Assembly: GCA_004321925.1 (NCBI GenBank)
Contig: SCQH01000004.1
Coordinates: forward strand, 1-53,603
Source: Nitrospirota bacterium
GTDB taxonomy: Bacteria > Nitrospirota > Thermodesulfovibrionia > Thermodesulfovibrionales > UBA6898
Length of the DNA stretch: 53,603 bases
Direction: 5' to 3'
The notes beneath the pieces are model-generated. The model was not told where the DNA came from and searched no databases. It saw only the letters and a program-made list of their open reading frames with translations. Numbering within the stretch: position 1 is the first letter of the stretch; the number at the start of each line of letters is the position of its first letter. A program made the translations under genes and the position numbers. Shown here piece after piece: positions 2,004-16,504 of this stretch.

Positions 2004-2085
2004 GATCCGCCGAAACTAATCCCATCGACAGGAGGGGACGGAAAGCGGCGGGCACTGGGGAAGATGGCCGAGCTAGCGTAGGATC
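2004..2085 (+). ncRNA. GEMM-I family cyclic-dinucleotide riboswitch, first copy
   Basis: The core GGGGACGGAAAGC followed by CGGGC and GATGGCCGAGCT fits the GEMM-I aptamer, closest to the Geobacter-type GEMM-Ib variant that has CGGAAAGC where classical c-di-GMP aptamers have CGCAAAGC. A closing stem GATCC (2004-2008)/GGATC (2081-2085) brackets it, and CCCATC/GGAGGG closes around a GACA loop. By alignment to remembered aptamers, the ligand-selecting base before CTAATCC is A, as in 3',3'-cGAMP-preferring versions. The segment after GAGCT departs from the usual GCCGA, so it may be degenerate. It overlaps a terminator and lies 56 bases before the Tat-exported binding-protein gene. Confidence 0.6.
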
Positions 2086-2114
2086 AGACATCCTCGCGTG
2101 TATTCGGCCTTTTT
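2066..2114 (+). terminator. Riboswitch-linked intrinsic terminator
   Basis: GGCCGA (2066-2071) pairs with TCGGCC (2104-2109), with an inner AGGAT/ATCCT stem (2080-2084/2090-2094) and five T residues after it. The 5' arm lies inside the aptamer, so aptamer folding and terminator folding exclude each other. This predicts that ligand binding turns transcription on. Confidence 0.65.
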
Positions 2115-2141: not shown

Positions 2142-3188
2142 ATGGGGGATCAAAAGACTCATGGCTGGAGCAGGCGGGAATTTCTTGGAGGGCTTGCGCT
2201 TGCCGGTACGGCCGCCGCTCTCGGCTTGCAGCCGGGACTTGGTATGGCAGCGGTGGAACCACCACCTGAAACAAAAACAGTACGGCTGCGGTATTGGGAC
2301 CCGGCATGCTGGGCTCCGTTCTATCTGGCTGAACCGTTCCTGCGTGAAGAGGGCTTCACGGATATTCGTTACGTGGCGGTGCCGACGAACGAACTTCCTG
2401 ATGCGTACAAGAAGAATCTTATAGACCTGAGCTGCGGTTTTTCTGTAGTGGATATGTATCATCTAGAGAAGGAAAATTCCCCCCATAAATTCCTTTCAGG
2501 GTTCCATGTGGGGTGCTATGCGCTGATCGGGAGCGACCGGGTGCGTTCGGTCCGTGACCTCAAGGGAAAGACCGTCTGGGCGGGAACGCTTGAGTATGGA
2601 GGTCCGCATCTCTTTTTCTCCGCTATCGTGGCCTATGTGGGTCTTGATCCGCGCAAGGACATCAAATACGTTTGGGTGAAGAAGGATGAGGCACTGGGTC
2701 TGTTCAACGAAGGAAAGATCGATGCCTTCATGTCCTTCCCCCCCGGTCCTCAGGAGCTTATGGCAAAAGGCATCGGCCGTCTCCTGGTCGACACCAACGT
2801 TGACAAACCGTGGTCTCAGTACTTCTGCTGCATGATGGGCGGACATAGTGATTATGTGAAGAACTATCCGATCGCCACAAAACGGGCCGTTCGGGCCATT
2901 CTGAAGGCAATAGATCTGGTTTCCCGTGAACCTGCAACGGCTGCGCGCGAGCTGCTGGCGAGAAAGATCGTGAAACAGAAGGATGAGAAGTATATTATTC
3001 AGGCGCTCAAGGAGATCCCCTATGGCCGGTGGAGGGAATATAATCCCGAAGACACGATCCGGTTTTATGCCCTGCGCATGCGGGATACCGGGCTGCTGAA
3101 GACCAATCCCCAGCAGTTCATCGACCAGCATACTGACTGGCGCTTTATCAGGGAGTTGAAAAAGGAATTCAAGATAACCGCGTGGTAA
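2142..3188 (+). CDS. Tat-exported NMT1/SsuA-like periplasmic binding protein
   Basis: A 348-residue protein with a twin-arginine signal (SRREFLGGLALAG, about residues 10-22), then the two-lobed fold of the NMT1/THI5-like and SsuA/TauA binding proteins: RLRYWDPACWAPFYLAEPF near the first lobe, VRSVRDLKGKTVW, and NEGKIDAFMSFPPGPQEL. Family members bind nitrate, sulfonates, pyrimidine precursors or similar small molecules for ABC import. No ABC permease or ATPase gene is near; the next gene is a membrane histidine kinase, so a sensory role is plausible. Tat rather than Sec export implies folding before transport. AAGGAGG lies upstream of the ATG, and a GEMM-type riboswitch with terminator controls the leader. 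Confidence 0.85.
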   Translation: MGDQKTHGWSRREFLGGLALAGTAAALGLQPGLGMAAVEPPPETKTVRLRYWDPACWAPFYLAEPFLREEGFTDIRYVAVPTNELPDAYKKNLIDLSCGFSVVDMYHLEKENSPHKFLSGFHVGCYALIGSDRVRSVRDLKGKTVWAGTLEYGGPHLFFSAIVAYVGLDPRKDIKYVWVKKDEALGLFNEGKIDAFMSFPPGPQELMAKGIGRLLVDTNVDKPWSQYFCCMMGGHSDYVKNYPIATKRAVRAILKAIDLVSREPATAARELLARKIVKQKDEKYIIQALKEIPYGRWREYNPEDTIRFYALRMRDTGLLKTNPQQFIDQHTDWRFIRELKKEFKITAW

Positions 3189-3233
3189 GGACCTGCGAGA
3201 CCATGCCTGAGCCGATACATACGGGATGCTGAC

Positions 3234-4745
3234 ATGAAGGTTTGGCTGCCCCGGCTTGTGGCAAGAGCGCCGTTCACGGTCCATACCAAGCTGATCGGGG
3301 CCTTCTTCGTCATCGTGGCGCTGCTGATCATTTTCGGCATCGTCGTCCTTCAGGTCCTGGGCGGTGTTAACCGCCGTTCCGAGGACGTCGCCAAGCTCCG
3401 GCGCAAGGTTGCCGCGTACCGTCAGCTCCAGCACAATACGACCACCCAGCTCTACAGCATCACCAGCGCGCTCCTGTCTCCGGAGGACCGGATGCTTGAA
3501 AGCGCCCTCCGTCAGCTGCATGAGTTCAGGTACGACCTTGAGCGGCTTCAGTTCGTCACAAAGGACGAGGAGGAGCTTTATGCCAAGATCGGCAAAGAGC
3601 ACGAGCAATTGGTCGGGGTGATAACGGAGATCGTGGAACTTACCCGGAAACGTGAATTCGTCAAGGCACGGGAGCTCCGGATGTCCAGGACTACCCCGCT
3701 GGCAGACAGTCTCGAACGGCTCACCAATGAGATGGTCAACAGGGCCGAGGCCGCCATGGAGACAAAGATCGACGAGAGCAATCATGCATATGTGACATCC
3801 CGGTGGGTGGTCATCGGCTTTGCTGTCGGGAGCATCGGCCTGGCGGTCCTGCTGGGGTATGCGGTCTCTTCCTCGCTGATGGGGCCGGTCATGCTCATGG
3901 ATGAGCGGCTCAGGCAGATCGCCTCGGGCGATTTTTCCAAAAGTGTCGAGGTGCCGAACCGCGACGAACTCGGAACCCTGGCCGATAACCTCAACCGCAT
4001 GAATACCGAGTTAAGGAACCTGTATCAACAGCTCGAGGCTGCCAGCCGCCACAAGTCCGAGTTCCTTGCCAGTGCGAGCCACGAGTTGCGTACGCCTCTG
4101 AATGCCATCATCGGGTTTTCAGGGATACTGAAGAAACGCATGTTCGGTGAGCTGAATGAAAAGCAGGCTGAATATGTCGAAGATATCTACACCTCCGGCA
4201 ACCATCTCCTGTCCCTTATCAATGACCTTCTGGACCTCGCCAAGGTCGAGTCGGGCCGCATCGAACTTGAAGTAAAACAGTTCGACCTGCCGACCGCTCT
4301 GGAGAATTCCATCACACTGTTAAAAGAGCGCGCCAATCGCCATGGGATTTCCATTGACCTTGCCGTTGACGAGAGACTGAGTTCCTTCATGGGAGATGAG
4401 CGCAAGCTCAAGCAGATCATGCTCAACCTGCTCTCCAATGCGGTTAAATTTACTCCGGACGGCGGCCGGATCACGGTGAAGGCAGGCCCTCTTGACGGCG
4501 GAGTGCAGATATCCGTGAGCGACACCGGCGTAGGGATCAAGCCCGAGGACCAGCAGGTCATCTTCGAGGAGTTCCGCCAGGTGGGCGATGATTCACATAA
4601 ACGTGAAGGCACGGGACTCGGCCTTACGCTGACCAAGACACTCATTGAACTGCACGGGGGCAGGATACGGGTGGAGAGCGAAGAAGGAAAGGGTTCGACC
4701 TTTACCTTTACCCTGTCGGAGGTACCATCATGCCGCGAAAGCTGA
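3234..4745 (+). CDS. Membrane sensor histidine kinase with HAMP domain
   Basis: 503 residues. A membrane segment at about 17-43 (LIGAFFVIVALLIIFGIVV), a mostly helical periplasmic region of about 140 residues, and a second membrane segment near 188-212 are followed by HAMP, HisKA and HATPase_c. The H-box is SASHELRTPLNAIIGF; the ATP-binding N, G1 and G2 boxes read NLLSNAVKFT, DTGVG and GTGLGL. The helical input region lacks a recognisable ligand-binding fold, which suits coupling to the upstream binding protein (inference). Its 3' end overlaps the receiver gene by 16 bases. The kinase core is almost identical to that of the kinase at 8353, showing a recent duplication. Confidence 0.92.
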   Translation: MKVWLPRLVARAPFTVHTKLIGAFFVIVALLIIFGIVVLQVLGGVNRRSEDVAKLRRKVAAYRQLQHNTTTQLYSITSALLSPEDRMLESALRQLHEFRYDLERLQFVTKDEEELYAKIGKEHEQLVGVITEIVELTRKREFVKARELRMSRTTPLADSLERLTNEMVNRAEAAMETKIDESNHAYVTSRWVVIGFAVGSIGLAVLLGYAVSSSLMGPVMLMDERLRQIASGDFSKSVEVPNRDELGTLADNLNRMNTELRNLYQQLEAASRHKSEFLASASHELRTPLNAIIGFSGILKKRMFGELNEKQAEYVEDIYTSGNHLLSLINDLLDLAKVESGRIELEVKQFDLPTALENSITLLKERANRHGISIDLAVDERLSSFMGDERKLKQIMLNLLSNAVKFTPDGGRITVKAGPLDGGVQISVSDTGVGIKPEDQQVIFEEFRQVGDDSHKREGTGLGLTLTKTLIELHGGRIRVESEEGKGSTFTFTLSEVPSCRES

Positions 4746-5122
4746 TCCTCGTTATCGAGGATAATGAGAAGAACATGAAGCTGGTGCGGGACCTGCTTCA
4801 GTATGAAGGCTATGAGTTCCTGGGCACCGATACTGCCGAAGAAGGTCTTCGTTTGGCCGGCGAAAATCTTCCCGCCCTCATTTTGATGGACATCGGGCTT
4901 CCGGGAATGAGTGGATTTGAGGCGCTTAAACATCTCAGGGCTGCTCCTGCTACGGCTGGCATTCCTGTGATCGCGGTTACCGCTTCGGTCATGACCCAGG
5001 ACCACCAGAAGATCACCGAAGCGGGTTTTGACGGCTACCAAAGGAAGCCTATTGACATTGATGAGTTTCTCGAAGCAGTGCGCAGTACCCTTGAGCACGG
5101 GGGTAAAAGGAGTGCCGAATGA
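4730..5122 (+). CDS. Single-domain response regulator, DivK-like
   Basis: 130 residues forming one receiver domain and no output domain. The acidic pair is in ILVIEDNEKN, the phospho-accepting Asp in LILMDIGLPGMSG, the switch Thr in IAVTAS and the conserved Lys in YQRKPID. It resembles the DivK-type receivers that commonly follow hybrid-like kinases with a SASHELRTP H-box. It overlaps the kinase by 16 bases and the cyclase gene by 4 bases, so the three are translationally linked. Likely it receives phosphate from the adjacent kinase; its downstream partner is unknown. Confidence 0.9.
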   Translation: MPRKLILVIEDNEKNMKLVRDLLQYEGYEFLGTDTAEEGLRLAGENLPALILMDIGLPGMSGFEALKHLRAAPATAGIPVIAVTASVMTQDHQKITEAGFDGYQRKPIDIDEFLEAVRSTLEHGGKRSAE

Positions 5123-6234
5123 ATGATCCCGCAAGGATCCTGGTAGTTGACGATACACCTGCGAACGTAAAGCTGCTTTCCGATCTGCTTACATACAAAG
5201 GCTATGAGGTTGTGACGGCTGCATCAGGGACCGAAGCATTGGAAAAGGTGGAGACCGGACAGCTCGATCTCGTCCTGCTCGACATCCTTATGCCCGGGAT
5301 GAATGGATACGAGGTCTGCCGTACCATCCGCAAAAACCCTGCCACGGAGATCCTGCCGGTAGTGCTGGTGACATCTCTTGACCCGGCCGAGGAACGGATG
5401 AACGGTCTGCAGGCGGGTGCCGACGATTTCCTCTCCAAGCCTGTTGACGAACAGGAATTGCTGGTACGTGTGCGGTCGCTGCTGAGGATCAAGGAGCTTT
5501 ATGATACGGTTCAGGTCCAGTCAGCCCAGCTTGCCGAGTGCAACAAGACCCTGGAACAGCGCGTACATGATCAGGTGGATCAGCTTGAGCGCCTGGGACG
5601 GTTGAAACGCTTTTTCTCCCCGCAACTGGCCGAGCTTATCATTTCAGGTGGGGCAGATGATCCCCTGAAGGCACATCGGAGAGAAGTGACGGTTGTCTTT
5701 CTGGACCTGCGCGGGTTTACCGCCTTCACTGAGGTGTCCGAGCCCGAGGAGGTGATCTCCGTGCTCAACGAGTACCATGTCGAGATGTCCAAGCTCATCC
5801 TTGAATATGAGGGTACTCTGGAGCACTTTGCCGGAGACGGTATGATGATAATCTTTAACGACCCTGTGCTCCTGCCAAATCCGACTGAGCGTGCGGTCCG
5901 GATGGCTTCAGCCATGCGCAAGCGCATCATAGAAGTGAAAGATAAATGGCAAAAGAGCGGTCACAGTCTCGACTGCGGTTTTGGGATCGCTCACGGCTAT
6001 GCTACTATCGGAGCGATCGGCTTTGAAGGCCGCAAGGATTACTGTGTCATCGGCTCTGTAGCAAATATGGCGGCCCGTCTCTGCGCCGAGGCCAAAGGCG
6101 GACAGGTCCTTATCAATCAAAAGACACTGAGTAAGGTCGAAGAGATAGTCGAAACAGAATCCCTGGATCAATTGTCCCTTAAAGGGTTTTCCAAGCCCGT
6201 TGCCGCGTTCAATATTATCAAGGTCAAGGATTAG
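5119..6234 (+). CDS. Receiver-class III nucleotidyl cyclase
   Basis: 371 residues: receiver domain (1-120, phospho-Asp in LVLLDILMPGMNGYE), a coiled coil (about 125-165) and a class III cyclase domain. Both metal-binding Asp are present (VVFLDLRGFT and HFAGDGMMIIF), and the transition-state Asn/Arg pair is kept in ANMAARL. The positions that usually choose the purine are unusual: His replaces the Lys four residues before the second metal Asp, and Cys occupies the Asp/Thr position (DYCVIGS). The product could be cAMP or another cyclic nucleotide. Phosphorylation by the neighbouring kinase probably controls it. A Crp/Fnr-type protein sits downstream as a possible receptor. Confidence 0.9.
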   Translation: MNDPARILVVDDTPANVKLLSDLLTYKGYEVVTAASGTEALEKVETGQLDLVLLDILMPGMNGYEVCRTIRKNPATEILPVVLVTSLDPAEERMNGLQAGADDFLSKPVDEQELLVRVRSLLRIKELYDTVQVQSAQLAECNKTLEQRVHDQVDQLERLGRLKRFFSPQLAELIISGGADDPLKAHRREVTVVFLDLRGFTAFTEVSEPEEVISVLNEYHVEMSKLILEYEGTLEHFAGDGMMIIFNDPVLLPNPTERAVRMASAMRKRIIEVKDKWQKSGHSLDCGFGIAHGYATIGAIGFEGRKDYCVIGSVANMAARLCAEAKGGQVLINQKTLSKVEEIVETESLDQLSLKGFSKPVAAFNIIKVKD

Positions 6235-6381
6235 AAATCGTCCCGGATCCATGACCGGGATATTCACGAAAAGGAAACTGCCTGCCCCTGGTGAAGGTGG
6301 CTGAGTCGGTCGGCGTAAGCTTCGGGCGGTAACAGATGACTATATGGAAATGCAATAAAGATCAGGGAAAGGGGGTTACAA

Positions 6382-7350
6382 ATGAAAACGTTCAGGAAAT
6401 CAATAGTTGTCATGCTTCTGCTGATTGCAGTTCCATGTTGGGCGCAGGCTCCGCCGCTCATCGCATGGCTTTGGCCGGGCACCCCTGAGGGGTCCGCCGC
6501 TGCCTTCGGCGCGTTTAAGGACGGCATGCGCGAGAACGGATTGGTTGAGGGAAAAGACTACACGCTCGATGTGCGCTATGCCGGAGGGAAGTATGACCGC
6601 TTCCCCTCGCTCGCTGGCGAGCTTCTCAAGCTTAACCCCACCATCATTATGATGTCCACCATCGCAGCGGTGCGTGCAGTTCAAAAGGCGACCAAAACGG
6701 TCCCGATCGTGTTCGTGAGCATCAATGACCCGCTGGGCAGCGGCCTGGTCGCGAGCCTCGCGCGTCCGGGGGGCAATACGACCGGGCTTTCGAGTCAGAA
6801 TGAGGACGCGGTCAATAAGAACATCGAACTCCTGCGCGAAGTGCTTCCCCGTGCATCACGTATTGCTGTCCTCAGCAATCCGGATAATCCATCAAACCTG
6901 AAAATGTTCGACCGCATCCGTGCTGTTGCCTCCACGTTCGGAATTAGCGCCAAGGCGTTCGAGGTATCCACGCCAAAAGGTCTCGCTGCCGCGTTCAGCG
7001 CAATTGCGCAGTACCGTCCCAATGCGTTATTGGTGCTTCCCGAGGCCATGCTCTACGATCAACGAGGCGTTATTACCAAATTATCGACAAGCCAAAGGAT
7101 TCCCACCTTCGCCTCCCAGTCAGAATTCGTTACCTCTGGATGCCTGATCTCCTTCGGCCCTAATCGCCTTGACTTGAGTCGCCGCTCTGCGATCTACGTG
7201 AAGAAGATTCTCGGAGGAGCCAAGCCCGCTGATCTTCCTGTCGAACAACCAACCAAGTTCAATCTCGTCGTGAACTTAAAGACCGCCAAAGCTCTCGGCA
7301 TCTCCATCCCGCAATCGTTGCTGCTGCGAGCGGATGAGGTGATCCAATGA
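6382..7350 (+). CDS. ABC_sub_bind (TrpX-like) periplasmic binding protein 1
   Basis: 322 residues with a Sec signal peptide (MKTFRKSIVVMLLLIAVPCWAQ) and the ABC substrate-binding family PF04392 pattern: GFREGL-like KDGMRENGLVEGKDY, VPIVFVSINDPLGSGLVASLARP and GGNTTGLS. Family members bind small ligands, reportedly aromatic amino acids in TrpX. No permease or ATPase accompanies it; the order binding protein, binding protein, Cache kinase suggests a sensory role. The following gene is a paralogue. GGGGG lies 8 bases upstream of the start. Arginine codons are almost all CGN, unlike the AGG-rich core genes further right. Confidence 0.88.
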   Translation: MKTFRKSIVVMLLLIAVPCWAQAPPLIAWLWPGTPEGSAAAFGAFKDGMRENGLVEGKDYTLDVRYAGGKYDRFPSLAGELLKLNPTIIMMSTIAAVRAVQKATKTVPIVFVSINDPLGSGLVASLARPGGNTTGLSSQNEDAVNKNIELLREVLPRASRIAVLSNPDNPSNLKMFDRIRAVASTFGISAKAFEVSTPKGLAAAFSAIAQYRPNALLVLPEAMLYDQRGVITKLSTSQRIPTFASQSEFVTSGCLISFGPNRLDLSRRSAIYVKKILGGAKPADLPVEQPTKFNLVVNLKTAKALGISIPQSLLLRADEVIQ

Positions 7351-7373
7351 TTCGAGTCCGAAGGAGTATAAGA

Positions 7374-8342
7374 ATGAGAACGATCAGGAAAATTTTAATT
7401 GCAATGTTGCTGGCGCTCACGGTGCCATGTTGGGCTCAGGAGCTGCCGCGTATCGCATGGCTATGGACAGGCACCCCGGAAGGAGAGGCAACTATCGTAG
7501 CTGCCTTCAAGGACGGCATGCGCGAAAACGGCATGATTGATGGCAAACACTATATTCTCGACGAACGCTTTGCAGGCGGAAAGTACGATCAGTTCCCCGC
7601 GTTCGCTGAAGAGCTTCTGAAGCGCAACCCCGCGATCATCATGGCGAACACGATCGCAGCGGTACGTGCGGCGCAGCAGGCGACCAAAACGGTCCCGATC
7701 ATATTCGTGAACACCAATGACCCGGTGGGCAGCGGCTTGGTCGCGAGCCTTGCGCATCCCGGAGGCAATACAACCGGGCTTACGAGTCAGAATGAGGATG
7801 CTATCAATAAGTACCTCGAACTTCTGCGCGAGGTGCTTCCCCGCGCGTCCCGTATTGCGGTCCTCAGCAACCCGGATAATCCGTCGATCCCGAAAATGTT
7901 CGAACGCCTGCGCGTTATGGCCGCCTCCTTCGGAATTACCGCACGGGCGTTCGAGGTGACGACGCCCAAAGGTCTCGATGCTGTGTTCAGCGCGATTGCG
8001 CAGTACCGGCCCAAAGCGTTATTGGTACTCCCCGATTCCATGTTCTACGGTCAGCGAAGCGTTATTTCCAAATTCGTGACAAGCCAAAGGATTCCTACCA
8101 TCGCCGCCAATTCTCAATTCGTAACCTCCGGATGCCTGATCTCATTCGGCACAAATCGTCCAGAGATCTTTCGTCGCTCTGCCGGCTACGTAAAGAAGAT
8201 CCTCGGCGGGGCCAAGCCTGCAGACCTTCCTGTCGAACAACCAACCCGGTTCGAACTCGTGGTGAACATGAAGGCCGCCAGGGCCCTCGGTATCACCATC
8301 CCACAATCGTTGCTGCTGCGTGCGGATGAGGTAATTCAATGA
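7374..8342 (+). CDS. ABC_sub_bind (TrpX-like) periplasmic binding protein 2
   Basis: Tandem paralogue of the previous gene, same length (322 residues) and aligned end to end, including the signal peptide (KILIAMLLALTVPCWAQ), NTNDPVGSGLVASLAHPGG and the C-terminal SLLLRADEVIQ. The start at 7374 is chosen because AAGGAG at 7361-7366 is correctly spaced. An in-frame ATG at 7347 overlaps the previous stop and lacks such a site. The pair arose by gene duplication. The short spacing (10 bases) to the next kinase gene suggests co-translation and functional pairing. Confidence 0.88.
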   Translation: MRTIRKILIAMLLALTVPCWAQELPRIAWLWTGTPEGEATIVAAFKDGMRENGMIDGKHYILDERFAGGKYDQFPAFAEELLKRNPAIIMANTIAAVRAAQQATKTVPIIFVNTNDPVGSGLVASLAHPGGNTTGLTSQNEDAINKYLELLREVLPRASRIAVLSNPDNPSIPKMFERLRVMAASFGITARAFEVTTPKGLDAVFSAIAQYRPKALLVLPDSMFYGQRSVISKFVTSQRIPTIAANSQFVTSGCLISFGTNRPEIFRRSAGYVKKILGGAKPADLPVEQPTRFELVVNMKAARALGITIPQSLLLRADEVIQ

Positions 8343-8352
8343 ATGGAGCGGC

Positions 8353-10242
8353 ATGAAGTTACGAGGGTTCTTCACAAAAAAGAACAATGCCGCCCCTGAG
8401 TTTTACCGTGGCAGACTGTTCCGCAAGTACTTTCAGCTGATCCTTGTGCTGGTCTGCGGGACACTGTTTGTATCGGGTGGAACCAGCGCCTATTTTTCCT
8501 ACCTGGAGCACCAGTCAACCCTTGGAAGCTTACAACATGAGAAAGCGAATGCCGCTGCATTGAGGATCGAACAGTTCGTTCGCCAGATAGAACAACAGCT
8601 CAGTTTCGTTGCACTCCCGCAGTTGGACAAGGGCGCCGCAGGCATTGAACAACGCAGGTTCGAATTTCTCAAGTTGCTCCGCCAAGTGCCGGCTGTAAGT
8701 GATATTTCGCAACTTGACGCTAATGGCAACGAACTGCTGAAGGTATCGCGACTGGAGATGGATGTTGTAGGCTCCTCAAAAGACCGTTCGCAGGACCCGG
8801 CGTTCCTCGGAGCTAAACCGGGAACAGCCTGGTACGGACCGGTTTATTTCAGGAAGGAGACCGAGCCGTACATGACAATCGCTGTGCGTTCTCGCACCGG
8901 AGAGGGCGCTGTGTCCATAATCGAAGTAAACCTCAAGTTCATCTGGGATGTGGTGACGAACATCCAGATTGGCAAGAAAGGCAAGGCTTATGTAGTCGAT
9001 AGCACCGGCAACCTCATCGCCGACCCCGACATCGGGTTGGTACTTGGAAAGACCAACCTGTCCCGACTTGATCACGTGAAATCAGCGCTTGCTGGGCAAG
9101 ATGCATCAAATGTAAAGGTGATTAAAACGTATGATCTCTCCGGTTCGAAGGTCTTTGCCTCATACGCTGACATCGAACCATTAGGCTGGAAAGTATTCGT
9201 CGAGCAGCCCGTCTCCGAGGTTTACGAAACGCTTTACGCCGCTATCCGTCGAACGGGATTTATGGTGGTTGCGGGGATGTTATTCTCTGTGCTGATCGCG
9301 CTTTGGTTTGCACGCGGCCTGGTGCGTCCAATTCGCATACTGCAAGAGGGGGCGCAAAAAGTTGGCGCAGGCGAGTTGGATCAGAAGATCGAAGTGAAGA
9401 CCGGAGACGAGCTCGAATCACTGGCAAACCAGTTCAATAGCATGACCGAACGGCTTCGCGAGTCTTATTCAAGCATGGAACGCAAGGTGGATGAACGAAC
9501 CGCCGAACTCCTTCTTGCCCGTGATGCCGCCGATGCCGCCAATCAGGCCAAGAGCATGTTCCTTGCCAGTGCGAGCCACGAGTTACGCACACCTCTGAAT
9601 GCCATCATCGGGTTTTCAGGGATACTGAAGAAACGCATGTTCGGTGATCTGAATGAGAAGCAGGCTGAATATGTCGAAGATATTAACACCTCCGGAAACC
9701 ATCTCCTGTCTCTTATCAACGATCTTCTGGATCTCGCCAAAGTTGAGTCCGGACGCATCGAACTTGACGTGAAACAGTTTGACCTGCCGTCAGCCCTTGA
9801 GAATTCGATAACACTGGTAAGAGAGAGGGCCAATCGCCATGGGATCCTCATTGAGCTTGCTCTTGACGAGAGGCTGAGTTCCTTTATGGGCGATGAGCGC
9901 AAACTCAAGCAGATCATGCTTAACCTGCTCTCCAATGCGGTAAAATTTACTCCGGATGGCGGCCGAGTCACGGTGAAGGCAGGCCCGGTCAATGGCGGAG
10001 TGCAGATATCCGTGAGTGACACCGGCGTCGGCATCAGGCCCGAGGACCAGCAGGTTGTCTTCGGTGAGTTTTGCCAGGTGGGCGATGATTCGCACAAACG
10101 TGAAGGCACGGGGCTCGGCCTCACGCTGACCAAGAAACTCGTTGAACTGCACGGAGGCGGGATACGCGTGGAGAGCGAGGCAGGAAAGGGTTCAACCTTT
10201 ACCTTTACCCTGTCGGAGGCACCTCCATGCCGGGAAAGCTGA
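8353..10242 (+). CDS. Cache-HAMP sensor histidine kinase
   Basis: 629 residues: membrane segment at about 30-52, a periplasmic dCache-like sensor (about 55-295; IEVNLKFIWDVVTNIQIGKKGKAYVVDS is characteristic in tone, with FVEQPVSEVYETL before the second membrane helix), HAMP, a short coiled coil (MERKVDERTAELLLARDAA), HisKA with SASHELRTP, and HATPase_c. From the H-box to the C-terminal CRES the sequence is nearly the same as the kinase at 3234, at DNA level too, while the input halves are unrelated: a domain-swapped duplicate. No intact receiver gene follows, only a scar. It may phosphorylate the receivers at 4730 or 5119. Confidence 0.92.
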   Translation: MKLRGFFTKKNNAAPEFYRGRLFRKYFQLILVLVCGTLFVSGGTSAYFSYLEHQSTLGSLQHEKANAAALRIEQFVRQIEQQLSFVALPQLDKGAAGIEQRRFEFLKLLRQVPAVSDISQLDANGNELLKVSRLEMDVVGSSKDRSQDPAFLGAKPGTAWYGPVYFRKETEPYMTIAVRSRTGEGAVSIIEVNLKFIWDVVTNIQIGKKGKAYVVDSTGNLIADPDIGLVLGKTNLSRLDHVKSALAGQDASNVKVIKTYDLSGSKVFASYADIEPLGWKVFVEQPVSEVYETLYAAIRRTGFMVVAGMLFSVLIALWFARGLVRPIRILQEGAQKVGAGELDQKIEVKTGDELESLANQFNSMTERLRESYSSMERKVDERTAELLLARDAADAANQAKSMFLASASHELRTPLNAIIGFSGILKKRMFGDLNEKQAEYVEDINTSGNHLLSLINDLLDLAKVESGRIELDVKQFDLPSALENSITLVRERANRHGILIELALDERLSSFMGDERKLKQIMLNLLSNAVKFTPDGGRVTVKAGPVNGGVQISVSDTGVGIRPEDQQVVFGEFCQVGDDSHKREGTGLGLTLTKKLVELHGGGIRVESEAGKGSTFTFTLSEAPPCRES

Positions 10243-10284
10243 TCTTCGTTATCCATAACCAGGATATCCACGAAAAGGAAACTG
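10227..10284 (+). pseudogene. Deletion scar: start of a receiver gene fused to post-cyclase sequence
   Basis: The first 27 bases (ATG at 10227, then CCGGGAAAGCTGATCTTCG and so on to 10253) match the start of the receiver gene at 4730 apart from two changes. The next 30 bases (CATAACCAGGATATCCACG onward to 10284) match 6252-6282, the sequence just after the cyclase stop, with three changes. The joint lies at a shared ATC. So the duplicated block once held kinase-receiver-cyclase, and the last two genes were removed. The remnant frame encodes about 20 residues and ends at 10289. Confidence 0.85.
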
Positions 10285-10285
10285 T

Positions 10286-10993
10286 TTGACAATGCATCAC
10301 TCAAATGACGAGAGGGAATTAGTAGAAAAGTTTGTTCGCAGAGTAATTTTGTTCAGGGGCATTACTGAGAAGTATTTGAAACAGATCGTTGATGATTTCA
10401 GCATTCTTCATGCAACAAAGAATGAGGTCATCATAGTGCAGGAAGATACAAGTACAGACCTCTACATAATTCTCAGGGGTAAAGTTAAAGTGACCCTTAT
10501 GAGTGTGGAAGGAGAAGAGTACATCCTGACAGATCTGCAGACGGGTGATTGTTTCGGCGAGATGAGCCTTATCGATGGGAAGCCCCGTTGTGCGACAGTA
10601 GTTGCCGCGGAGGACTCGACATTTGCCGTGCTCAAGCGGGAAAGACTGATCGAAGCGTTACAACAAGACCCCATACTTGCACTTGATCTGCTCGCAACCC
10701 TCGTCCATAAGCTGAGAAAGGCCACTGAACGGGAGGAAGGCCTTGCATTTCTCGATGTACGCGAACGTGTGTTGAAACTGTTCGGAGAACTGATGCGGGA
10801 AGAGGGCAAGAGGGAAGAAGACGGTTTTTACAGGATAGGCAAGCGCACCCAGAAGGAACTGGCCATAAGAATAGGCGCTTCACGAGAGGCGACCTCGCAG
10901 GTCCTCAGGGCCCTGGCTTCAGAAAAGATTCTCTTGGAAAAAGACATTTATTTTCTGATATCACCTTCCGTATGCAGAGAAGACTCTGAGTAA
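10286..10993 (+). CDS. Crp/Fnr family transcription regulator
   Basis: About 235 residues. The N-terminal cyclic-nucleotide-binding fold (about 25-140) shows DLYIILRGKVKVTL, GDCFGEMSLIDGKPR (the phosphate-binding cassette, with an Arg near the end) and ATVVAAEDSTF; a long dimer helix and a winged helix follow, with the recognition region IGASREATSQVLRAL. No Fnr-type cysteine cluster is visible, so cNMP binding is more likely than iron-sulfur sensing. TTG at 10286 has AAGGAA at 10275-10280; ATG at 10292 is an alternative. It may read the product of the cyclase at 5119 (inference). Confidence 0.88.
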   Translation: MTMHHSNDERELVEKFVRRVILFRGITEKYLKQIVDDFSILHATKNEVIIVQEDTSTDLYIILRGKVKVTLMSVEGEEYILTDLQTGDCFGEMSLIDGKPRCATVVAAEDSTFAVLKRERLIEALQQDPILALDLLATLVHKLRKATEREEGLAFLDVRERVLKLFGELMREEGKREEDGFYRIGKRTQKELAIRIGASREATSQVLRALASEKILLEKDIYFLISPSVCREDSE

Positions 10994-11007
10994 GCAGCCG
11001 CAAAAAC

Positions 11008-11030
11008 AAGGCACTTATACACTGCCTTTT
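11008..11030 (+). terminator. Weak intrinsic terminator after the Crp/Fnr gene
   Basis: AAGGCA (11008-11013) and TGCCTT (11023-11028) form a six-pair stem with a nine-base loop followed by TT. The stem is short. It would end the long unit starting near 1990. Confidence 0.35.
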
Positions 11031-11153
11031 GTCATTCCGGCCCTGCGGTCTCTGCCGCGGGATTCTTCATTTTCTCCTCCGATGGTATTTTCACCTTTAC
11101 TCTGCCGCCTGATACTGGCAGAATCAGGCTAAGCAAGAAGAAGGAGGTGCAGT

Positions 11154-11261
11154 ATCAAAAACAGGACCCGCATCATATTAGATTACATAGTGCCTGTGAT
11201 CGGCATCCTTCTGACAGTCGGAGGACTGTATATTCTGCTGGTCAATCTGTTAGGTCATTAG
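11154..11261 (+). CDS. Possible 35-residue single-span membrane peptide with non-standard start
   Basis: The frame reads IKNRTRIILDYIVPVIGILL and then TVGGLYILLVNLLGH before a TAG stop, a clean positively-charged-then-hydrophobic single membrane helix. A perfect AAGGAGG lies at 11141-11147, but no ATG, GTG or TTG follows in frame; the best-placed codon is ATC at 11154. An alternative GTG frame at 11147 gives a low-complexity, less protein-like product. It may be a real small protein using a rare start, a sequencing error, or chance. The remaining sequence between 11031 and 11384 shows nothing else clear. Confidence 0.3.
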   Translation: MKNRTRIILDYIVPVIGILLTVGGLYILLVNLLGH

Positions 11262-11384
11262 AAGGGAGGGAAGGGGTTAAACATGGTTGAGGCGCCGCCT
11301 GTGCGGCAGACACAGATGAGAACAACAAAATCTAACGATCTCCCCTGCAAGGGAGAAGAGAACTCAGTGAAAGGAGAAACACAA

Positions 11385-11903
11385 ATGAAATGGTCTATTA
11401 AGGAAGTAGCAAGCGTACTGTTGGTTGCGGTACTTGTTGTTGGGACGTTGGCTGGGGCTTCGGAGGTATGGGCAGCGGAGAAGGGCGTGCAGGGAAGCTG
11501 GATACTCGTCGAGCTTTATAACGAGACAGACGGTAAGAGGTTAGAGCCGTTCGGCCCCAATCCCAGAGGCTCCATGCTTTTAACTCCTGATGGCCATTTT
11601 TCGATGACCTTGATGCGGTCAAGCCTTCCGAAATTCGCCTCCAACGTCCGCACAAAAGGAACCGCTGAGGAGTACAAGGCCGTTGTTGACGGTTCCGTTG
11701 CAGCTATTGGCACGTACACAGTGACGGGCGATAAGGAGCAGATACTGAATCTGCATATTGTGGGCAGCACGTTCCCAAACTGGGATGGTCAGCATCAGAA
11801 GAGGCCTGTGACCGTTACCGGAGACGATATGAAGATCATAAACCCTGCCCCGTCCATTGGTGGCGGCGGAAAGAATACTCAGATCTGGAAACGGGCCAAG
11901 TAG
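11385..11903 (+). CDS. Exported lipocalin-like domain protein
   Basis: 172 residues from the ATG at 11385, which has AAGGAG at 11371-11376 and opens directly with a signal peptide (KWSIKEVASVLLVAVLVVG, cleavage near VWA-AEK). The earlier in-frame ATG at 11283 would bury the signal peptide behind 34 residues. The mature part matches the lipocalin-like family PF13924: VQGSWILVELYNETDGKRLEP, then GSMLLTPDGHFSMTLMR and GTYTVTGDKEQILNLHI. Such proteins are small periplasmic or secreted beta-barrels, function mostly unknown. It lies between the signalling unit and the second riboswitch; a hairpin follows its stop. Confidence 0.8.
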   Translation: MKWSIKEVASVLLVAVLVVGTLAGASEVWAAEKGVQGSWILVELYNETDGKRLEPFGPNPRGSMLLTPDGHFSMTLMRSSLPKFASNVRTKGTAEEYKAVVDGSVAAIGTYTVTGDKEQILNLHIVGSTFPNWDGQHQKRPVTVTGDDMKIINPAPSIGGGGKNTQIWKRAK

Positions 11904-11907
11904 ACTG

Positions 11908-11933
11908 CATGTCCGGGGGGCCGGGACATGTTT
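11908..11933 (+). terminator. Probable terminator after the lipocalin-like gene
   Basis: CATGTCC (11908-11914) pairs with GGACATG (11924-11930) across a GC-rich loop, followed by TTT. The T-run is short, so strength is uncertain, but its position 5 bases after the stop codon supports the role. Confidence 0.5.
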
Positions 11934-11997
11934 GAGCGCGTTAGAGCCATAGTATCAAAATGTGGTTACGTGGCCATCTCACTAAGGGAACTAGACG

Positions 11998-12026
11998 TTG
12001 ACGGTTCCGGACTTATCTGGCATAGT
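11998..12026 (+). promoter_or_regulatory. Putative promoter of the second riboswitch-controlled unit
   Basis: TTGACG at 11998-12003 and CATAGT at 12021-12026 are separated by 17 bases, a reasonable sigma-70-type promoter. The -35 area (GACGTTGACGG) is repeated ahead of the first riboswitch at the same distance from the aptamer. Transcription would start a few bases before 12043. Confidence 0.5.
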
Positions 12027-12042
12027 GAAGATATAGACAGAC

Positions 12043-12125
12043 GATCCCGACAAAGCCAACCCCTGCGCGACAAGGGGACGGAAAGCAACGGGTCTTAAGG
12101 AAGATGGCCGAGCTGCCGAAGGACA
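12043..12125 (+). ncRNA. GEMM-I family cyclic-dinucleotide riboswitch, second copy
   Basis: The sequence shows CCGACAAAGCCAACCCC, stem CCCCT/AGGGG, core GGGGACGGAAAGC, then CGGGTCTTAAGGAAGATGG (stem TCTT/AAGA) and CCGAGCTGCCGA. This follows the GEMM-I aptamer order and again carries the CGGAAAGC variant of GEMM-Ib aptamers. At the ligand-selecting position the base is G (AAAGCC), as in c-di-GMP-binding aptamers, whereas the first copy has A. The closing stem is weaker than in the first copy. It precedes the Tat-exported metallo-hydrolase gene by about 65 bases. Confidence 0.78.
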
Positions 12126-12152
12126 GGACTGAGGTAGCTTCGGCCATTTTTA
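12104..12152 (+). terminator. Riboswitch-linked intrinsic terminator
   Basis: ATGGCCGAGCTGCC at the 3' half of the aptamer pairs with GGTAGCTTCGGCCAT (one bulge), followed by TTTTT. The arm is shared with the aptamer, so ligand binding should prevent termination and switch the downstream gene on. Confidence 0.8.
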
Positions 12153-12188
12153 TTGGCAAACTGATGTACGAACCGAAGGGGGTGTAAT

Positions 12189-13232
12189 ATGGATGGTGGA
12201 ATGAATCGCAGGGAATTTCTGAAGTATTCAGCGGCAGCGGGTATGCTTTTCGCAGCAGGAGATGGAATACTGGGAGGCATGACAGCGCAGGCTGCAACGG
12301 CTGTCAACGAAGTGGACAAGCTGACGATCTGGATCCTGGCAGACAACTATTACGACACGAATGAACCGGACGCCAAGATCACAAAGCGCTACCGCTCGGT
12401 GGCCGGGAAATCAATTCACGCGCAGCACGGTCTTTCTTATTATATCGAGACGGTCACTGCCGGAAAGACAAGCTCCTGCATGTTCGATTTCGGGCTTGAC
12501 CCTGCGGACGTGATGGGCAATATTGCGCTACTGGGGCTCGATATCGGAAAGACAAACGCCTTCAGTCTGAGCCATGGCCATTACGATCACTATACGGGTG
12601 CACTCAGTATCCTCAGGCAGAACCAGGCGCACATAGCCGCCGGAACGCCGTTTTATGTGGGCGAGGAGGCCTTTTCACGGAGATACACACTGCGCCCCGG
12701 AGCGGCCGCACCGACAGACCTCGGACAACTGAGCAAAGAGGATATCGAAGCCCTTGGCGTGAAGGTGATCGAGGTAAAGACCCCGGTGGAGATCATTCCC
12801 GGCGCGTACCTTTCCGGAAGGATTGAGAGGGTCACGAGCTACGAGAAGATACCTGCGTCTCAGCAGATAAAACGCGGTGAAAAGATCGAATCAGACAATT
12901 TTCAGGGTGAGCAGGCTGTTTTCTTTAACGTAAAAGGAAAGGGGCTGGTCGTTCTTTCCGGCTGCGCGCACTGTGGGATCGTAAATACCATTAAACATGC
13001 GCAAAAGATTGCCGGCACAGACAAAGTTCATGCAGTAATGGGAGGTTTCCATCTTATTGTTGCGAAGCCCGAGCTTATTCAGAGCACCGTTGCCGATATC
13101 AAGGCGATGAAGCCCGACCATATCGTGGGCACCCATTGCACCGGGTTCAGGGCGATGGTGGCTTTAAGCACGGAGATGCCCGAAGCCTTCGTTGTGAATA
13201 CCGCGGGTACCAGGTATACCTTTGGCGCATAG
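12189..13232 (+). CDS. Tat-exported metallo-beta-lactamase-fold hydrolase (COG1237-like)
   Basis: 347 residues. A twin-arginine signal (MNRREFLKYSAAAGMLFAAG) is followed by an MBL domain with SLSHGHYDHYTGAL (HxHxDH metal site), a second-metal His in LSGCAHCGIVNT, GGFHL and a C-terminal GTHCTG. The arrangement recalls the COG1237 group annotated as dihydropterin-ribofuranosylaminobenzene phosphate synthase-like proteins, where the reaction is proven only for an archaeal member. Export to the periplasm makes a pterin-synthesis role unlikely here. ATG at 12189 or at 12201 (MNRREF) are both possible. It is the sole gene behind the second GEMM riboswitch and ends before a strong terminator. Confidence 0.85.
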   Translation: MDGGMNRREFLKYSAAAGMLFAAGDGILGGMTAQAATAVNEVDKLTIWILADNYYDTNEPDAKITKRYRSVAGKSIHAQHGLSYYIETVTAGKTSSCMFDFGLDPADVMGNIALLGLDIGKTNAFSLSHGHYDHYTGALSILRQNQAHIAAGTPFYVGEEAFSRRYTLRPGAAAPTDLGQLSKEDIEALGVKVIEVKTPVEIIPGAYLSGRIERVTSYEKIPASQQIKRGEKIESDNFQGEQAVFFNVKGKGLVVLSGCAHCGIVNTIKHAQKIAGTDKVHAVMGGFHLIVAKPELIQSTVADIKAMKPDHIVGTHCTGFRAMVALSTEMPEAFVVNTAGTRYTFGA

Positions 13233-13658: not shown

Positions 13659-13740
13659 GGCCCGGCGCTAGGAAAAGAGAATGCGGTTCATATATAATAT
13701 CAAAGGATCGCAGAGTTTTTTTGAGGCAACACCATACACT

Positions 13741-14520
13741 ATGACAGAATTCTTACGACAAAACAGATGGCTGCTGGACATCCTTGACATCTTCCTGGTC
13801 TCGGTCGTCATCTATCGCCTGCTGAAGATCGTCAAGGGCACGAAGGCTGCGCAGATGCTTGTCGGCCTGGGCGTCCTGCTCGCCGCATCGCTCGCCTCAC
13901 GGTACCTTGATCTCATCACCATAGACTGGATCGTCCAGAGCTTCTGGGCCCAGATCGTCATTGCCATGCTGGTCCTGTTTCAGCCCGAGATCCGGAGGGC
14001 CCTCGCCCATATCGGGGAGGCGCAGTTCCTGTCGACCTTCACCAAGGCCGAAGAGCTCAAATCCCTCGAGGAGATCGTCCGCGCCGCGGTCTCGCTTTCG
14101 AACAAAAAGATAGGCGCCCTGATCGTCATAGAGCGAGACACCAGCCTCAAGGACTTTGTTGAGGTCGGCACCTTCCTCGATGCCAGGGTCTCGAAGGAGC
14201 TTCTGGTGAGCATCTTTCATCCGTCATCTCCGATCCATGACGGGGCCGTCATCATCAAAGGCAACCGGATCGCTGCTGCAGGCTGTTTCCTGCCTATCAC
14301 TCTCAGTTCTGAGTTAAGCAAGGCCCTCGGGACACGCCACCGGGCCGGCATAGGCCTGACAGAGGAGACGGATGCCGTAGCGATCATCGTCTCCGAGGAG
14401 CAGGGCAGCATATCCATGGCCCTTGACGGCAGGCTCGAGACCAAGCTTGATATGGCCGCACTCAGGGACATGATGACAGACCTCTTTACCTCGGTGAAGG
14501 GAAAGAAGGTGAAAAAATGA
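13741..14520 (+). CDS. cdaA: Diadenylate cyclase CdaA (c-di-AMP synthase)
   Basis: About 259 residues from MTEFLRQNRWLLDILDIFLV, the usual CdaA opening; an upstream ATG at 13681 would add 20 atypical residues. Three N-terminal membrane helices precede the DAC (DisA_N) domain, where the catalytic DGA (SSPIHDGAVIIKG) and RHR (LGTRHRAGIGLTEETDA) motifs are intact. It makes c-di-AMP from two ATP at the inner membrane. It overlaps cdaR by 4 bases, and glmM follows: the widely conserved cdaA-cdaR-glmM arrangement, in which CdaR and GlmM modulate CdaA. Confidence 0.95.
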   Translation: MTEFLRQNRWLLDILDIFLVSVVIYRLLKIVKGTKAAQMLVGLGVLLAASLASRYLDLITIDWIVQSFWAQIVIAMLVLFQPEIRRALAHIGEAQFLSTFTKAEELKSLEEIVRAAVSLSNKKIGALIVIERDTSLKDFVEVGTFLDARVSKELLVSIFHPSSPIHDGAVIIKGNRIAAAGCFLPITLSSELSKALGTRHRAGIGLTEETDAVAIIVSEEQGSISMALDGRLETKLDMAALRDMMTDLFTSVKGKKVKK

Positions 14521-15158
14521 GAAAATTGCTGACAGAAAATCTCGGGCTGAAGATATCGGCCCTGCTGATATCCGTACTCCTCTGGTTCTTTGTGACCTCG
14601 CGGGGCCAGTCTGAGATCTCGCTTGAGGTCCCTCTCGAGTTCAGGAACATACCCGCAGGACTCGGCATTGTCAGCAGCAGCATCAAGACCACTACCGTAA
14701 ATATCAGGGGGCAGGAGAGGATGATGAAGAATATAAGGTCATCCGGCATCAGGGCCTCGGTTGACCTCACCAAGGCAAAGAAGGGTGACGATACCTTCTT
14801 CATCAACAAGGATGACATCAAACTGCCGCACACCATGTCGGTCATGACCGTCACCCCTTCGTCTGTGAAGGTCCGGATGGATGAGACGATCACAAAGGTC
14901 ATCCCGGTCAAGCCGGTCCTGGTCGGCAGCCCTGAAAAAGGATATGATGCCCGGGTGGTATCGGTCAAACCTTCTGTGATAACCGTGCAGGGGCTTAAGG
15001 CAGAGGTGAGAAAGTTGACCGAGCTCAGGACAGAACCGTTGGATATCACCGATCTGAAAGAGACGATATCTCAGCAGGTAGAGCTCGACACACAGGGGGC
15101 TAATGTCAGTTTTGACGCCACCGCGGTCACCGTTACGGTGACAGGGAGAAAGAGATGA
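14517..15158 (+). CDS. cdaR: YbbR-domain protein CdaR
   Basis: 213 residues: one N-terminal membrane anchor (LGLKISALLISVLLWFFVT) and an extracytoplasmic part with YbbR-type repeats (for example EVPLEFRNIPAGL, and the repeat starting VIPVKPVLVGSPEKGYDA). It is the CdaA-regulating partner in the c-di-AMP cluster. Firmicute CdaR usually has four YbbR repeats; this one is shorter with about two. Overlaps with the genes on both sides by 4 bases indicate coupled translation. Confidence 0.9.
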   Translation: MRKLLTENLGLKISALLISVLLWFFVTSRGQSEISLEVPLEFRNIPAGLGIVSSSIKTTTVNIRGQERMMKNIRSSGIRASVDLTKAKKGDDTFFINKDDIKLPHTMSVMTVTPSSVKVRMDETITKVIPVKPVLVGSPEKGYDARVVSVKPSVITVQGLKAEVRKLTELRTEPLDITDLKETISQQVELDTQGANVSFDATAVTVTVTGRKR

Positions 15159-16504
15159 AGCTCTTCGGCACTGACGGCATCAGGGGGAGGGTCAACAGGC
15201 ACCCCATGACACCCGAGACGGTCCTGCGGATCGGCATGGCTGCCGCAACCGTGCTACGCAAGGAGCATTATGGCAGGAACATGGTACTGATAGGCAAGGA
15301 CACCAGGCTCTCGGGGTATATGATCGAGAGCGCCCTCACCTCAGGCATATGCTCGATGGGCATGAATGTGACGCTCGTCGGCCCGCTTCCGACACCGGGG
15401 ATAGCCTTTCTCACGAGGACGCTCCGTATGGATGCCGGGATCGTTATTTCAGCCTCTCACAACCCTTTTCAGGACAACGGCATCAAGTTCTTTTCCCATG
15501 ACGGCTTTAAACTGCCGGACTCCCTGGAACGGAGGATCGAAGAGCTGGTCACTGACGACAATCTGGCCCGGTTCCGTCCAAAAGGGGAGGAGGTCGGAAA
15601 GGCCTTCAGGCTTGATGACGCGACCGGCAGGTACATCGAGTATGTGAAATCGACGCTGCCCAAAGGGATGTTGTTCGAGGGCATGAAACTGGTCGTCGAC
15701 TGCGCCAACGGGGCAGCCTATAAGACCACCCCCTGGCTCCTGCGCGAACTGGGGGCCGAGGTCATCGCGATCAATGAGAAGCCTGACGGGGTCAACATAA
15801 ATCTGGACTGCGGGACCCTCCATATGGAGAGCCTTCAGAAGGCGGTCCTTCAGCATAAGGCCGACGCCGGCATTGCCCATGACGGCGATGCAGACAGGGT
15901 CCTCCTCTGTGACGAAAAAGGCCGGGTGGTAGACGGCGACCGGATCCTCGGGATCTGCGCTGATGACATGAAGGCCTCGCGCTTTCTGAGAGGAAATACC
16001 GTCGTCTCGACGGTCATGAGCAATATAGGGCTCGAAAAATTCCTTGAGCAAAAAGGCATCCGCCTGATCAGGACAAAGGTCGGCGACCGGTATGTTGTCG
16101 AAAGGATGATCGCAGAAGGGTACAACCTCGGAGGCGAACAGTCCGGCCATATTATCTTCCTTGACCATAATACGACCGGCGACGGACCGGTCACCGCAAT
16201 GCAGGTGCTGAGCATCATGAAGAAAAAGGGCGCCAGCCTTTCAAAGCTTGCATCGGGTATCAGGCTCTTTCCCCAGGTGCTGATAAATGTTGAGGTTCTG
16301 AAAAAACATGACATCAGGACGATCCCCGGGATCGAAAAGGCGGTGCGGGCTGCAGAGGCGAAGCTCGGGAGCAACGGGAGGGTCCTGGTGCGTGCCTCCG
16401 GAACGGAACCGAAGATACGCGTGATGCTCGAAGGCCGGGACCTCAAGGTCATAACCGGTCTCGGCAGGAACATAGCAAAGGTCATCAAAGAGACGATGAG
16501 ATAG
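15155..16504 (+). CDS. glmM: Phosphoglucosamine mutase
   Basis: 449 residues, the normal length. It interconverts glucosamine-6-phosphate and glucosamine-1-phosphate for UDP-GlcNAc, peptidoglycan and LPS synthesis. MKLFGTDGIRGRVN opens it; the active-site phosphoserine lies in ISASHNPFQDNGIKFF, the metal-binding loop is DGDADR and the substrate loop is GGEQSGH; the C-terminal phosphate-binding loop is RASGTEPKIRVM. In other bacteria GlmM also inhibits CdaA, which matches its place directly after cdaR (4-base overlap). Confidence 0.97.
   Translation: MKLFGTDGIRGRVNRHPMTPETVLRIGMAAATVLRKEHYGRNMVLIGKDTRLSGYMIESALTSGICSMGMNVTLVGPLPTPGIAFLTRTLRMDAGIVISASHNPFQDNGIKFFSHDGFKLPDSLERRIEELVTDDNLARFRPKGEEVGKAFRLDDATGRYIEYVKSTLPKGMLFEGMKLVVDCANGAAYKTTPWLLRELGAEVIAINEKPDGVNINLDCGTLHMESLQKAVLQHKADAGIAHDGDADRVLLCDEKGRVVDGDRILGICADDMKASRFLRGNTVVSTVMSNIGLEKFLEQKGIRLIRTKVGDRYVVERMIAEGYNLGGEQSGHIIFLDHNTTGDGPVTAMQVLSIMKKKGASLSKLASGIRLFPQVLINVEVLKKHDIRTIPGIEKAVRAAEAKLGSNGRVLVRASGTEPKIRVMLEGRDLKVITGLGRNIAKVIKETMR

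Follow-up and report, generated by a model that had tools for sequence, protein, structure and literature searches.

Positions 2142–10993 of the window, the 53,603-nt stretch of Nitrospirota bacterium DNA analysed here (assembly GCA_004321925.1, contig SCQH01000004.1), encode what we read, with a probability of about 0.7, as a modular periplasmic sensing system. Orphan substrate-binding proteins (SBPs) would signal through two membrane histidine kinases, HK1 and HK2, to a shared receiver and receiver-cyclase, and the resulting cyclic nucleotide would act on a Crp-type regulator. The evidence comprises the gene content, the lack of a recognised transporter partner, the conservation of the arrangement, kinase sensor domains that follow the SBP family, kinase cores that follow the output, and the retention of catalytic residues.

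The eight reading frames are all open, tightly packed and on the plus strand. SBP1 (2142–3188), assigned from Pfam NMT1_2/NMT1 and NCBIfam, is a Tat-secreted, SsuA-like orphan periplasmic binding protein. It is followed by HK1 (3234–4745), a membrane kinase with Pfam HAMP-HisKA-HATPase domains. The start of a single-domain receiver (4730–5122; Response_reg), which is kept in relatives, overlaps the stop of HK1, and the receiver-class III nucleotidyl cyclase (5119–6234; Response_reg and Guanylate_cyc) comes next. Two orphan binding proteins of the Pfam family ABC_sub_bind (PF04392; 6382–7350 and 7347–8342) precede HK2 (8353–10242; dCache_1-HAMP-HisKA-HATPase), and a Crp/Fnr-family regulator (10286–10993; cNMP_binding and a weak HTH_Crp_2 match) completes the set. 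The reading frames and Pfam domains bear out the gene content and coordinates of the initial annotation, which had listed three binding proteins of two families, kinases, a receiver, a receiver-cyclase and a Crp/Fnr protein. Its placement of each binding-protein group directly ahead of a membrane kinase also holds in the window, and no ABC permease or ATPase was seen alongside, from 2142 to 13232.

The comparison covered dozens of other genomes and points to the SBPs as external sensors of the kinases. Nitrospirota, Desulfobacterota and Rokubacteria keep the order SBP1-HK1-receiver-receiver/cyclase, as do alpha-, beta- and gammaproteobacteria, and each kinase has one to seven tandem SBPs. A scan of 70 SBP1 loci, chosen blind to their neighbours, found an HK1-type sensor at 57 (36 of 42 where the downstream room was at least 5 kb). 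The SBP gene was upstream and on the same strand in 56 of these 57 loci, and a receiver-cyclase lay within 2.3 kb downstream in 40. The reciprocal search, made without SBP1, showed HK1-sensor orthologues preceded by SBP1 in 5/5 loci fetched and HK2-sensor orthologues preceded by ABC_sub_bind in 3/3, so that for both kinases an SBP gene and the gene of a kinase with an extracytoplasmic sensor form a conserved operon. The initial annotation had proposed a search for this co-occurrence and had named a lack of conserved order as evidence against the module; the order is conserved across several phyla, and the gene arrangement is therefore not due to chance.

The two kinases differ in their sensors and agree in their cores. 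The sensors of HK1 and HK2 are unrelated (~20% identity), whereas the cores are 88% identical and the DHp domains match at 63 of 66 positions. Compared with HK1, HK2 keeps the core (83–88%) and not the sensor (~20%). The reverse is found for HK1 in Nitrospirota NtrC-type clusters, where the sensor is kept (76–78%) and the core is not (41–43%). The HK2 cores and the cyclase-linked HK1 cores of Nitrospirota form one clade in the tree (support 100/99). Recent gene conversion between the HK1 and HK2 cores is unsupported, as the HK2 cores and the HK2s of relatives have their own clade (100/97). In these kinases the sensor goes with the SBP family and the core with the output, and the relatives amount to a natural domain-swap experiment. 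Control of a cyclase is not universal, because some relatives have an NtrC-type output in its place.

The predicted structure of SBP1 (pLDDT 90) is closest to the solved structures of CmpA, NrtA and SsuA (Z ~29). The model of the HK1 periplasmic sensor is a four-helix bundle that, in fold comparison, resembles TorS from its complex with TorT and LytS from its complex with XylFII; helical bundles readily reach high Z-scores. The outputs of TorT-TorS and XylFII-LytS are transcriptional regulators, not a cyclase.

The receiver of the window cyclase is fused to a cyclase domain with its catalytic residues, as seen from Pfam and from an alignment of 48 rows, in which the metal-binding Asp positions are kept in 48/48 and 47/48 rows and the Asn and Arg in 48/48. 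The window protein has all of them. Its purine-choice residues are H and C, which is neither the canonical adenylate nor the canonical guanylate cyclase pair. We regard the protein as a putative two-component-controlled class III nucleotidyl cyclase that would be switched by phosphorylation of its receiver. The regulator has a Crp-type cNMP-binding domain (PF00027, 79 bits; matches to solved structures of E. coli CRP and others), and the Crp gene stands immediately after the cyclase gene in relatives. The motif GGTGANNTCACC was considered as a Crp site and rejected, since the window matches it only at chance level, and hits in a sigma-70 promoter scan were no more frequent than in shuffles. 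The intergenic region between the Crp and lipocalin genes contains a conserved block.

Annotation places both NMT1_2 and ABC_sub_bind among the ABC substrate-binding families, and the nearest NCBIfam model for the PF04392 proteins, below its cut-off, is TrpX, a tryptophan transporter subunit. The SBPs might therefore be ordinary transporter subunits with a permease and ATPase elsewhere, and the adjacent kinases would merely regulate uptake. We consider this unlikely. The genome, 120 contigs rated 100% complete, has no SsuC/TauC- or TrpY-type partner that we could recognise among its PF02653 and PF00528 hits, which fall in gene sets read as Liv-like, Pst/Tup-like or of other non-matching types. 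The matching permease or ATPase elsewhere in the genome that the initial annotation had named as counter-evidence was not recognised for either SBP family, and ATPase-like reading frames occur at just 10 of the 70 SBP1 loci. The genome has four PF04392 SBPs, and each lies beside a receptor gene: two copies at HK2, one at an HK and NtrC pair, and one at an MCP. Approximately 24 of the 29 ABC_sub_bind loci of the phylum adjoin receptors (HK, MCP, HD-GYP, GGDEF/EAL, HAMP-GAF), no permease homologue was seen at any of the 29, and throughout the phylum PF04392 genes lie next to or overlap those for MCP, HD-GYP, GGDEF and HK proteins. That the kinase sensor domain follows the SBP family also argues against a transport role, and the SBPs are orphans in that no dedicated transporter was recognised beside the SBP1 arrays or in the genome. 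They could yet serve a distant, unrecognised transporter.

The window could also contain two independent adjoining systems: SBP1-HK1-receiver-cyclase, and ABC_sub_bind-HK2 directed at a different receiver. Crp would then be part of just one of the two. The cyclase gene and the first ABC_sub_bind gene are 147 bp apart, HK2 of the window is not immediately followed by a receiver, and both kinds of cluster occur separately in relatives. Nevertheless, the same receiver/cyclase/Crp genes stand directly behind HK2 in the relatives' loci L164–L166, and this back end is common to both front ends (L164, L165 and L166 versus L168 and L170). The near-identity of the HK1 and HK2 cores and DHp domains means that common partners are to be expected in any case. 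We judge separate systems improbable, although HK2 could act on a receiver elsewhere. Targets other than kinases, such as secreted enzymes or redox or scavenging proteins, in a neighbourhood that reflects shared regulation only, are very improbable. SBP1 has four invariant cysteines, two of which lie where it aligns with the cysteine-rich region of the enzyme THI5, whose fold it shares, and genes for an MBL-fold protein, a lipocalin and further orphan binding proteins are nearby. The tight association of sensor and SBP across phyla, and the exchange of the sensor together with the SBP, speak against such targets.

Both front ends, SBP1-HK1 and ABC_sub_bind-HK2, are present in the window with a single back end. 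Most likely, one receiver/cyclase takes input from both SBP-kinase branches and Crp responds to the cyclic nucleotide; HK1 and HK2 very probably share this back end instead of feeding two separate paths. SBP1 and the ABC_sub_bind pair would bind periplasmic ligands and dock on the sensors of the neighbouring kinases, the four-helix bundle of HK1 and the dCache domain of HK2. The kinases, which have the same type of transmitter, may then phosphorylate the same receiver, the receiver-cyclase or both. Once phosphorylated, the cyclase would raise or lower the amount of a cyclic nucleotide, putatively a 3',5'-cyclic purine nucleotide. The Crp/Fnr protein would read the nucleotide and regulate target genes, among them probably the neighbouring lipocalin and MBL-fold genes. 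The initial annotation had drawn a path from periplasmic ligand to cyclic nucleotide to transcription; its orphan SBPs stand, the gene order proved to be conserved, the single shared back end is our amendment, and the mechanism is proposed from the genes.

A Lipocalin_5-like secreted protein by Pfam (11283–11903, plus strand), a possible output gene product, is a conserved neighbour in L164, L165, L166 and L169, and a Tat-signal MBL-fold hydrolase-like protein (12189–13232, plus strand; phmmer matches to 2p4z and 3h3e) in L164–L166 and L168–L170. Other orphan SBPs (TctC, Peripla_BP_6) occur in the same neighbourhood as these two genes. The module had been described as under a cyclic-dinucleotide riboswitch. 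Its leader (2006–2110, plus strand; fold z -2.26) does contain a degenerate GEMM-I-like aptamer at 2006–2081, followed by a GGCCGA...TCGGCC-TTTTT terminator-like hairpin. The aptamer scores 23 bits to RF03167 in cmscan (E = 0.1), where the gathering score is 59, the leader is missing from the matches of the own-genome RF01051 scan, and in the consensus fold it is mainly the terminator that finds support. Relatives have similar leaders before SBP1; that of L164 scores 30 bits to RF03168 and several score nothing. A confident c-di-GMP-I/GGC-variant riboswitch (12045–12121, plus strand; RF01051 50 bits and RF03167 58.6 bits in cmscan; also in the own-genome RF01051 scan) lies after the SBP module and ahead of the MBL-fold gene. 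We therefore do not treat a riboswitch as an established component of the module, and the label "multi-messenger" claimed too much, given how weak the case for the riboswitch is; periplasmic sensing remains supported.

Activation of kinases by SBPs is an established mechanism (PMC9602780; PMC3043104), and the module is a variant of it with other SBP families and outputs. LevQRST of Streptococcus mutans is similar: two ABC-SBP-superfamily proteins with no nearby ABC transporter share one operon with a kinase and its single response regulator, and signalling from the kinase to the regulator requires them (PMC3043104). However, LevQRST has a single kinase, its response regulator is transcriptional, its SBPs are sugar-binding and its host is Gram-positive, whereas the window combines SBPs of two families, two kinases that share a core, a receiver-cyclase and Crp. 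In TorT-TorS and XylFII-LytS, cited in PMC9602780 (PDB 3o1h, 5xsj), the kinase sensor is a helical bundle on which an extracytoplasmic SBP docks, and similar docking may occur here, with SBPs of the NMT1/SsuA-like and ABC_sub_bind families instead. PruR-DcpA and PruR-DTB operons also pair a secreted binding protein and a conserved periplasmic sensor domain with exchanged cytoplasmic outputs (PMC13259868). PruR, however, binds pterin and has another fold, and the outputs in the available text of that source are c-di-GMP enzymes or kinases, with no cyclase-Crp back end among them. BctC likewise activates the kinase BctE in Bordetella pertussis, where its family is strongly expanded, but it belongs to the TctC family and to a real transporter operon (PMC9602780). 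No description of the present gene combination was found among open-licence papers, in agreement with the initial annotation, which knew of no such system.

The odds slightly favour a class of plug-in sensing systems that is widespread and undescribed, in which one to seven orphan NMT1/SsuA or ABC_sub_bind SBPs serve each kinase. A change of SBP family would bring a change of sensor, and a change of output, either class III cyclase and Crp or an NtrC-type regulator, would bring a change of core. In the window, two front ends on one cyclase-Crp back end would sum two kinds of periplasmic ligand into one cyclic-nucleotide signal. If this is true, NMT1/SsuA-like and ABC_sub_bind proteins join the co-sensors of kinases, and a concrete, testable role falls to the large sets of "orphan" ABC SBPs of rhizobia, Rokubacteria, Desulfobacterota and Nitrospirota, whose annotation makes them parts of transporters. 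The natural swaps reveal which part of the kinase goes with the input and which with the output. Should the double front end function in this way, it would be a natural two-input device on one cyclic-nucleotide pathway.

The module comprises eight close-packed genes on the + strand (2142–10993) of the window. The window corresponds to contig C37 in a genome of 3.2 Mb, whose nearest relatives with names are MAGs of Nitrospirota (Thermodesulfovibrio sp., Nitrospirae/Nitrospiraceae bacteria). The eight genes encode the SsuA-like NMT1_2 binding protein SBP1, its neighbouring kinase HK1, a receiver, a receiver-class III cyclase, two ABC_sub_bind (PF04392) proteins, the dCache-HAMP kinase HK2, and a Crp/Fnr regulator. 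The HK1/receiver, receiver/cyclase, and ABC_sub_bind 1/ABC_sub_bind 2 gene pairs overlap, and the only gap longer than 100 bp (6235–6381), ahead of the ABC_sub_bind genes, includes the sequence gaaggtggctgagtcggtcggcgtaagc, which resembles a relic of a GEMM 3′ part. The module is followed by a lipocalin-like gene and then by a Tat-signal MBL-fold gene. The intergenic region between Crp and lipocalin carries a conserved, repeated block similar to GGTNNTTTCACC (window ~11070–11110; loci L164–L168), a possible regulator site. A c-di-AMP synthase is encoded right after the module, within a cdaA-cdaR-glmM-like operon (13681–16504; DAC-domain diadenylate cyclase, YbbR, and phosphoglucomutase).

The initial annotation placed the module under a cyclic-dinucleotide riboswitch, of which a sub-threshold leader match remains. 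The GEMM-like aptamer part of the SBP1 leader reaches 23 bits in the window and 30 bits in L164, both below the cut-off, and nothing scored in the SBP1 leaders of several other relatives. The leaders of relatives can be aligned and end with a terminator-like hairpin, which is the mainly supported element of the consensus fold. The confident riboswitch, of the c-di-GMP-I/GGC-variant type, is located at 12045–12121, directly ahead of the MBL-fold gene; the genome contains three further c-di-GMP-I matches (C95, C99, C28).

When SBP1 was the sole query against genome_contigs, with neighbouring genes disregarded, 70 loci were identified, 57 of which contain an HK1-sensor match. The binding protein is upstream of HK1 on the same strand in 56 of these 57 loci, in one to seven copies per kinase locus, and a receiver-cyclase follows within 2.3 kb in 40. 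Several of the remaining loci end at contig edges; among all loci with at least 5 kb downstream, the HK1 sensor is present in 36 of 42. The gene order is kept across Nitrospirota, Desulfobacterota, Rokubacteria, a putative Eisenbacterium, and alpha-, beta-, and gammaproteobacteria including rhizobia; in Microvirga and Sinorhizobium it is plasmid-borne. The reciprocal search of 61 genomes with the HK1 sensor found strong orthologues in the window's genome and six others, with SBP1 directly upstream in all five loci fetched. HK2 orthologues, from three genomes, are all behind one to three ABC_sub_bind genes. The loci of this search partly coincide with those of the SBP1 scan (L005 = L169, L006 = L167, L007 = L170, L008 = L168). 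The module is patchy: HK1 is missing from most relatives, three of the four genomes of the same genus among them.

The reported absence of permease and ATPase partners was supported. The genome contains six BPD_transp_2 and nine BPD_transp_1 matches, which were read from their neighbours as gene sets of the branched-chain-amino-acid-like and Pst/Tup-like kinds, plus a few of other types; no sulfonate/taurine- or TrpXYZ-type partner permease was recognised among them (C33 and C59 without gene-by-gene annotation). ATPase-like ORFs occur in only 10 of the 70 SBP1 loci. Each of the genome's four PF04392 proteins lies beside a receptor: the pair in the window adjoins HK2, one on C57 adjoins a kinase and an NtrC-type regulator, and the gene of one on C7 (L090 1346–4353) overlaps that of an sCache-HAMP-MCP chemoreceptor, likely forming an SBP-chemoreceptor pair. 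Of the two NMT1 proteins besides SBP1, the one on C68 precedes a HAMP-PAS sensor protein. Within the phylum, PF04392 proteins are present in 76 of 118 genomes. A receptor or signalling gene (dCache-HD-GYP, MCP, HK, GGDEF/EAL, or HAMP-GAF) directly adjoins them in about 24 of 29 sampled loci, for a few of which the assignment relied on similarity or on truncated genes, and no permease homologue was seen within ~1.5 kb in the 29 loci. Module neighbourhoods in relatives contain further orphan binding proteins of other families: TctC (L168 11996–12961), TctC-like by sequence (L170 3693–4685), and Peripla_BP_6 (L164 9101–10441).

The HK1 sensor was modelled as a four-helix bundle (pLDDT 77), for which a second look with VIA-align gave Z-scores of 17.9 to McpS and of 15.3 and 13.1 to the solved SBP-kinase complexes XylFII-LytS and TorS-TorT, although helical bundles easily score high. 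For the SBP1 model (pLDDT 90), the closest structures are CmpA, NrtA, and SsuA (Z 25–29). Cysteines 56, 125, 229, and 230 are invariant across 46 SBP1 relatives, which is unusual for a periplasmic binding protein, and the vicinal cysteines, 229 and 230, align with a cysteine-rich region in THI5. In class III cyclases, metal-binding, transition-state, and purine-choice positions have assigned roles, and two positions usually fix adenine versus guanine. The window cyclase retains the metal-binding and transition-state residues; its purine-choice positions, H and C (R/H and A/C/S in most family members), match neither canonical adenylyl nor canonical guanylyl cyclases and so do not name its product. 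The Crp protein matches Crp structures of E. coli and others, and its gene overlaps the cyclase gene by four bases in L168 and L170.

Activation of receptors by binding proteins is an established mechanism; only about ten such kinases had been characterised by 2022 (PMC9602780). Two further papers describe LevQRST, with two orphan binding proteins, a kinase, a regulator, and no transporter nearby (PMC3043104), and PruR-DcpA/DTB, in which a binding protein has swapped outputs (PMC13259868). The available portions of these three sources do not describe a receiver-cyclase and Crp fed by NMT1 or ABC_sub_bind proteins, and searches of an open-licence library yielded no account of one.

Among relatives, the receiver-cyclase-Crp back end is preceded by SBP1-HK1 in L168 and L170 and by ABC_sub_bind-HK2 in L164, L165, and L166; L167 has the SBP1-HK1 front end and ends within the cyclase. 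In the window, both front ends share a single back end. Window HK1 and HK2 share 88% identity in the kinase core but 20% in the sensor. HK1s of Nitrospirota clusters with NtrC-type output are 76–78% identical to window HK1 in the sensor, but only 41–43% in the core. HK2 cores form a 100/97 clade nested in a 100/99 clade with Nitrospirota cyclase-linked HK1 cores, outside of which the NtrC-linked HK1 cores are placed. The DHp stretch of histidine kinases determines partner choice; 63 of its 66 positions are identical between window HK1 and HK2, but only 33–37 between window HK1 and the NtrC-linked HK1s. The identities, the core tree, and the DHp comparison indicate that, at the sequence level, the sensor tracks the binding protein and the kinase core tracks the output. 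Action of the binding protein on the sensor, and of the core on the receiver, would produce such a pattern. The tracking of output by the core is also an argument that the receiver and cyclase encoded ahead of HK2 would serve this kinase, which lacks its own receiver gene in the window.
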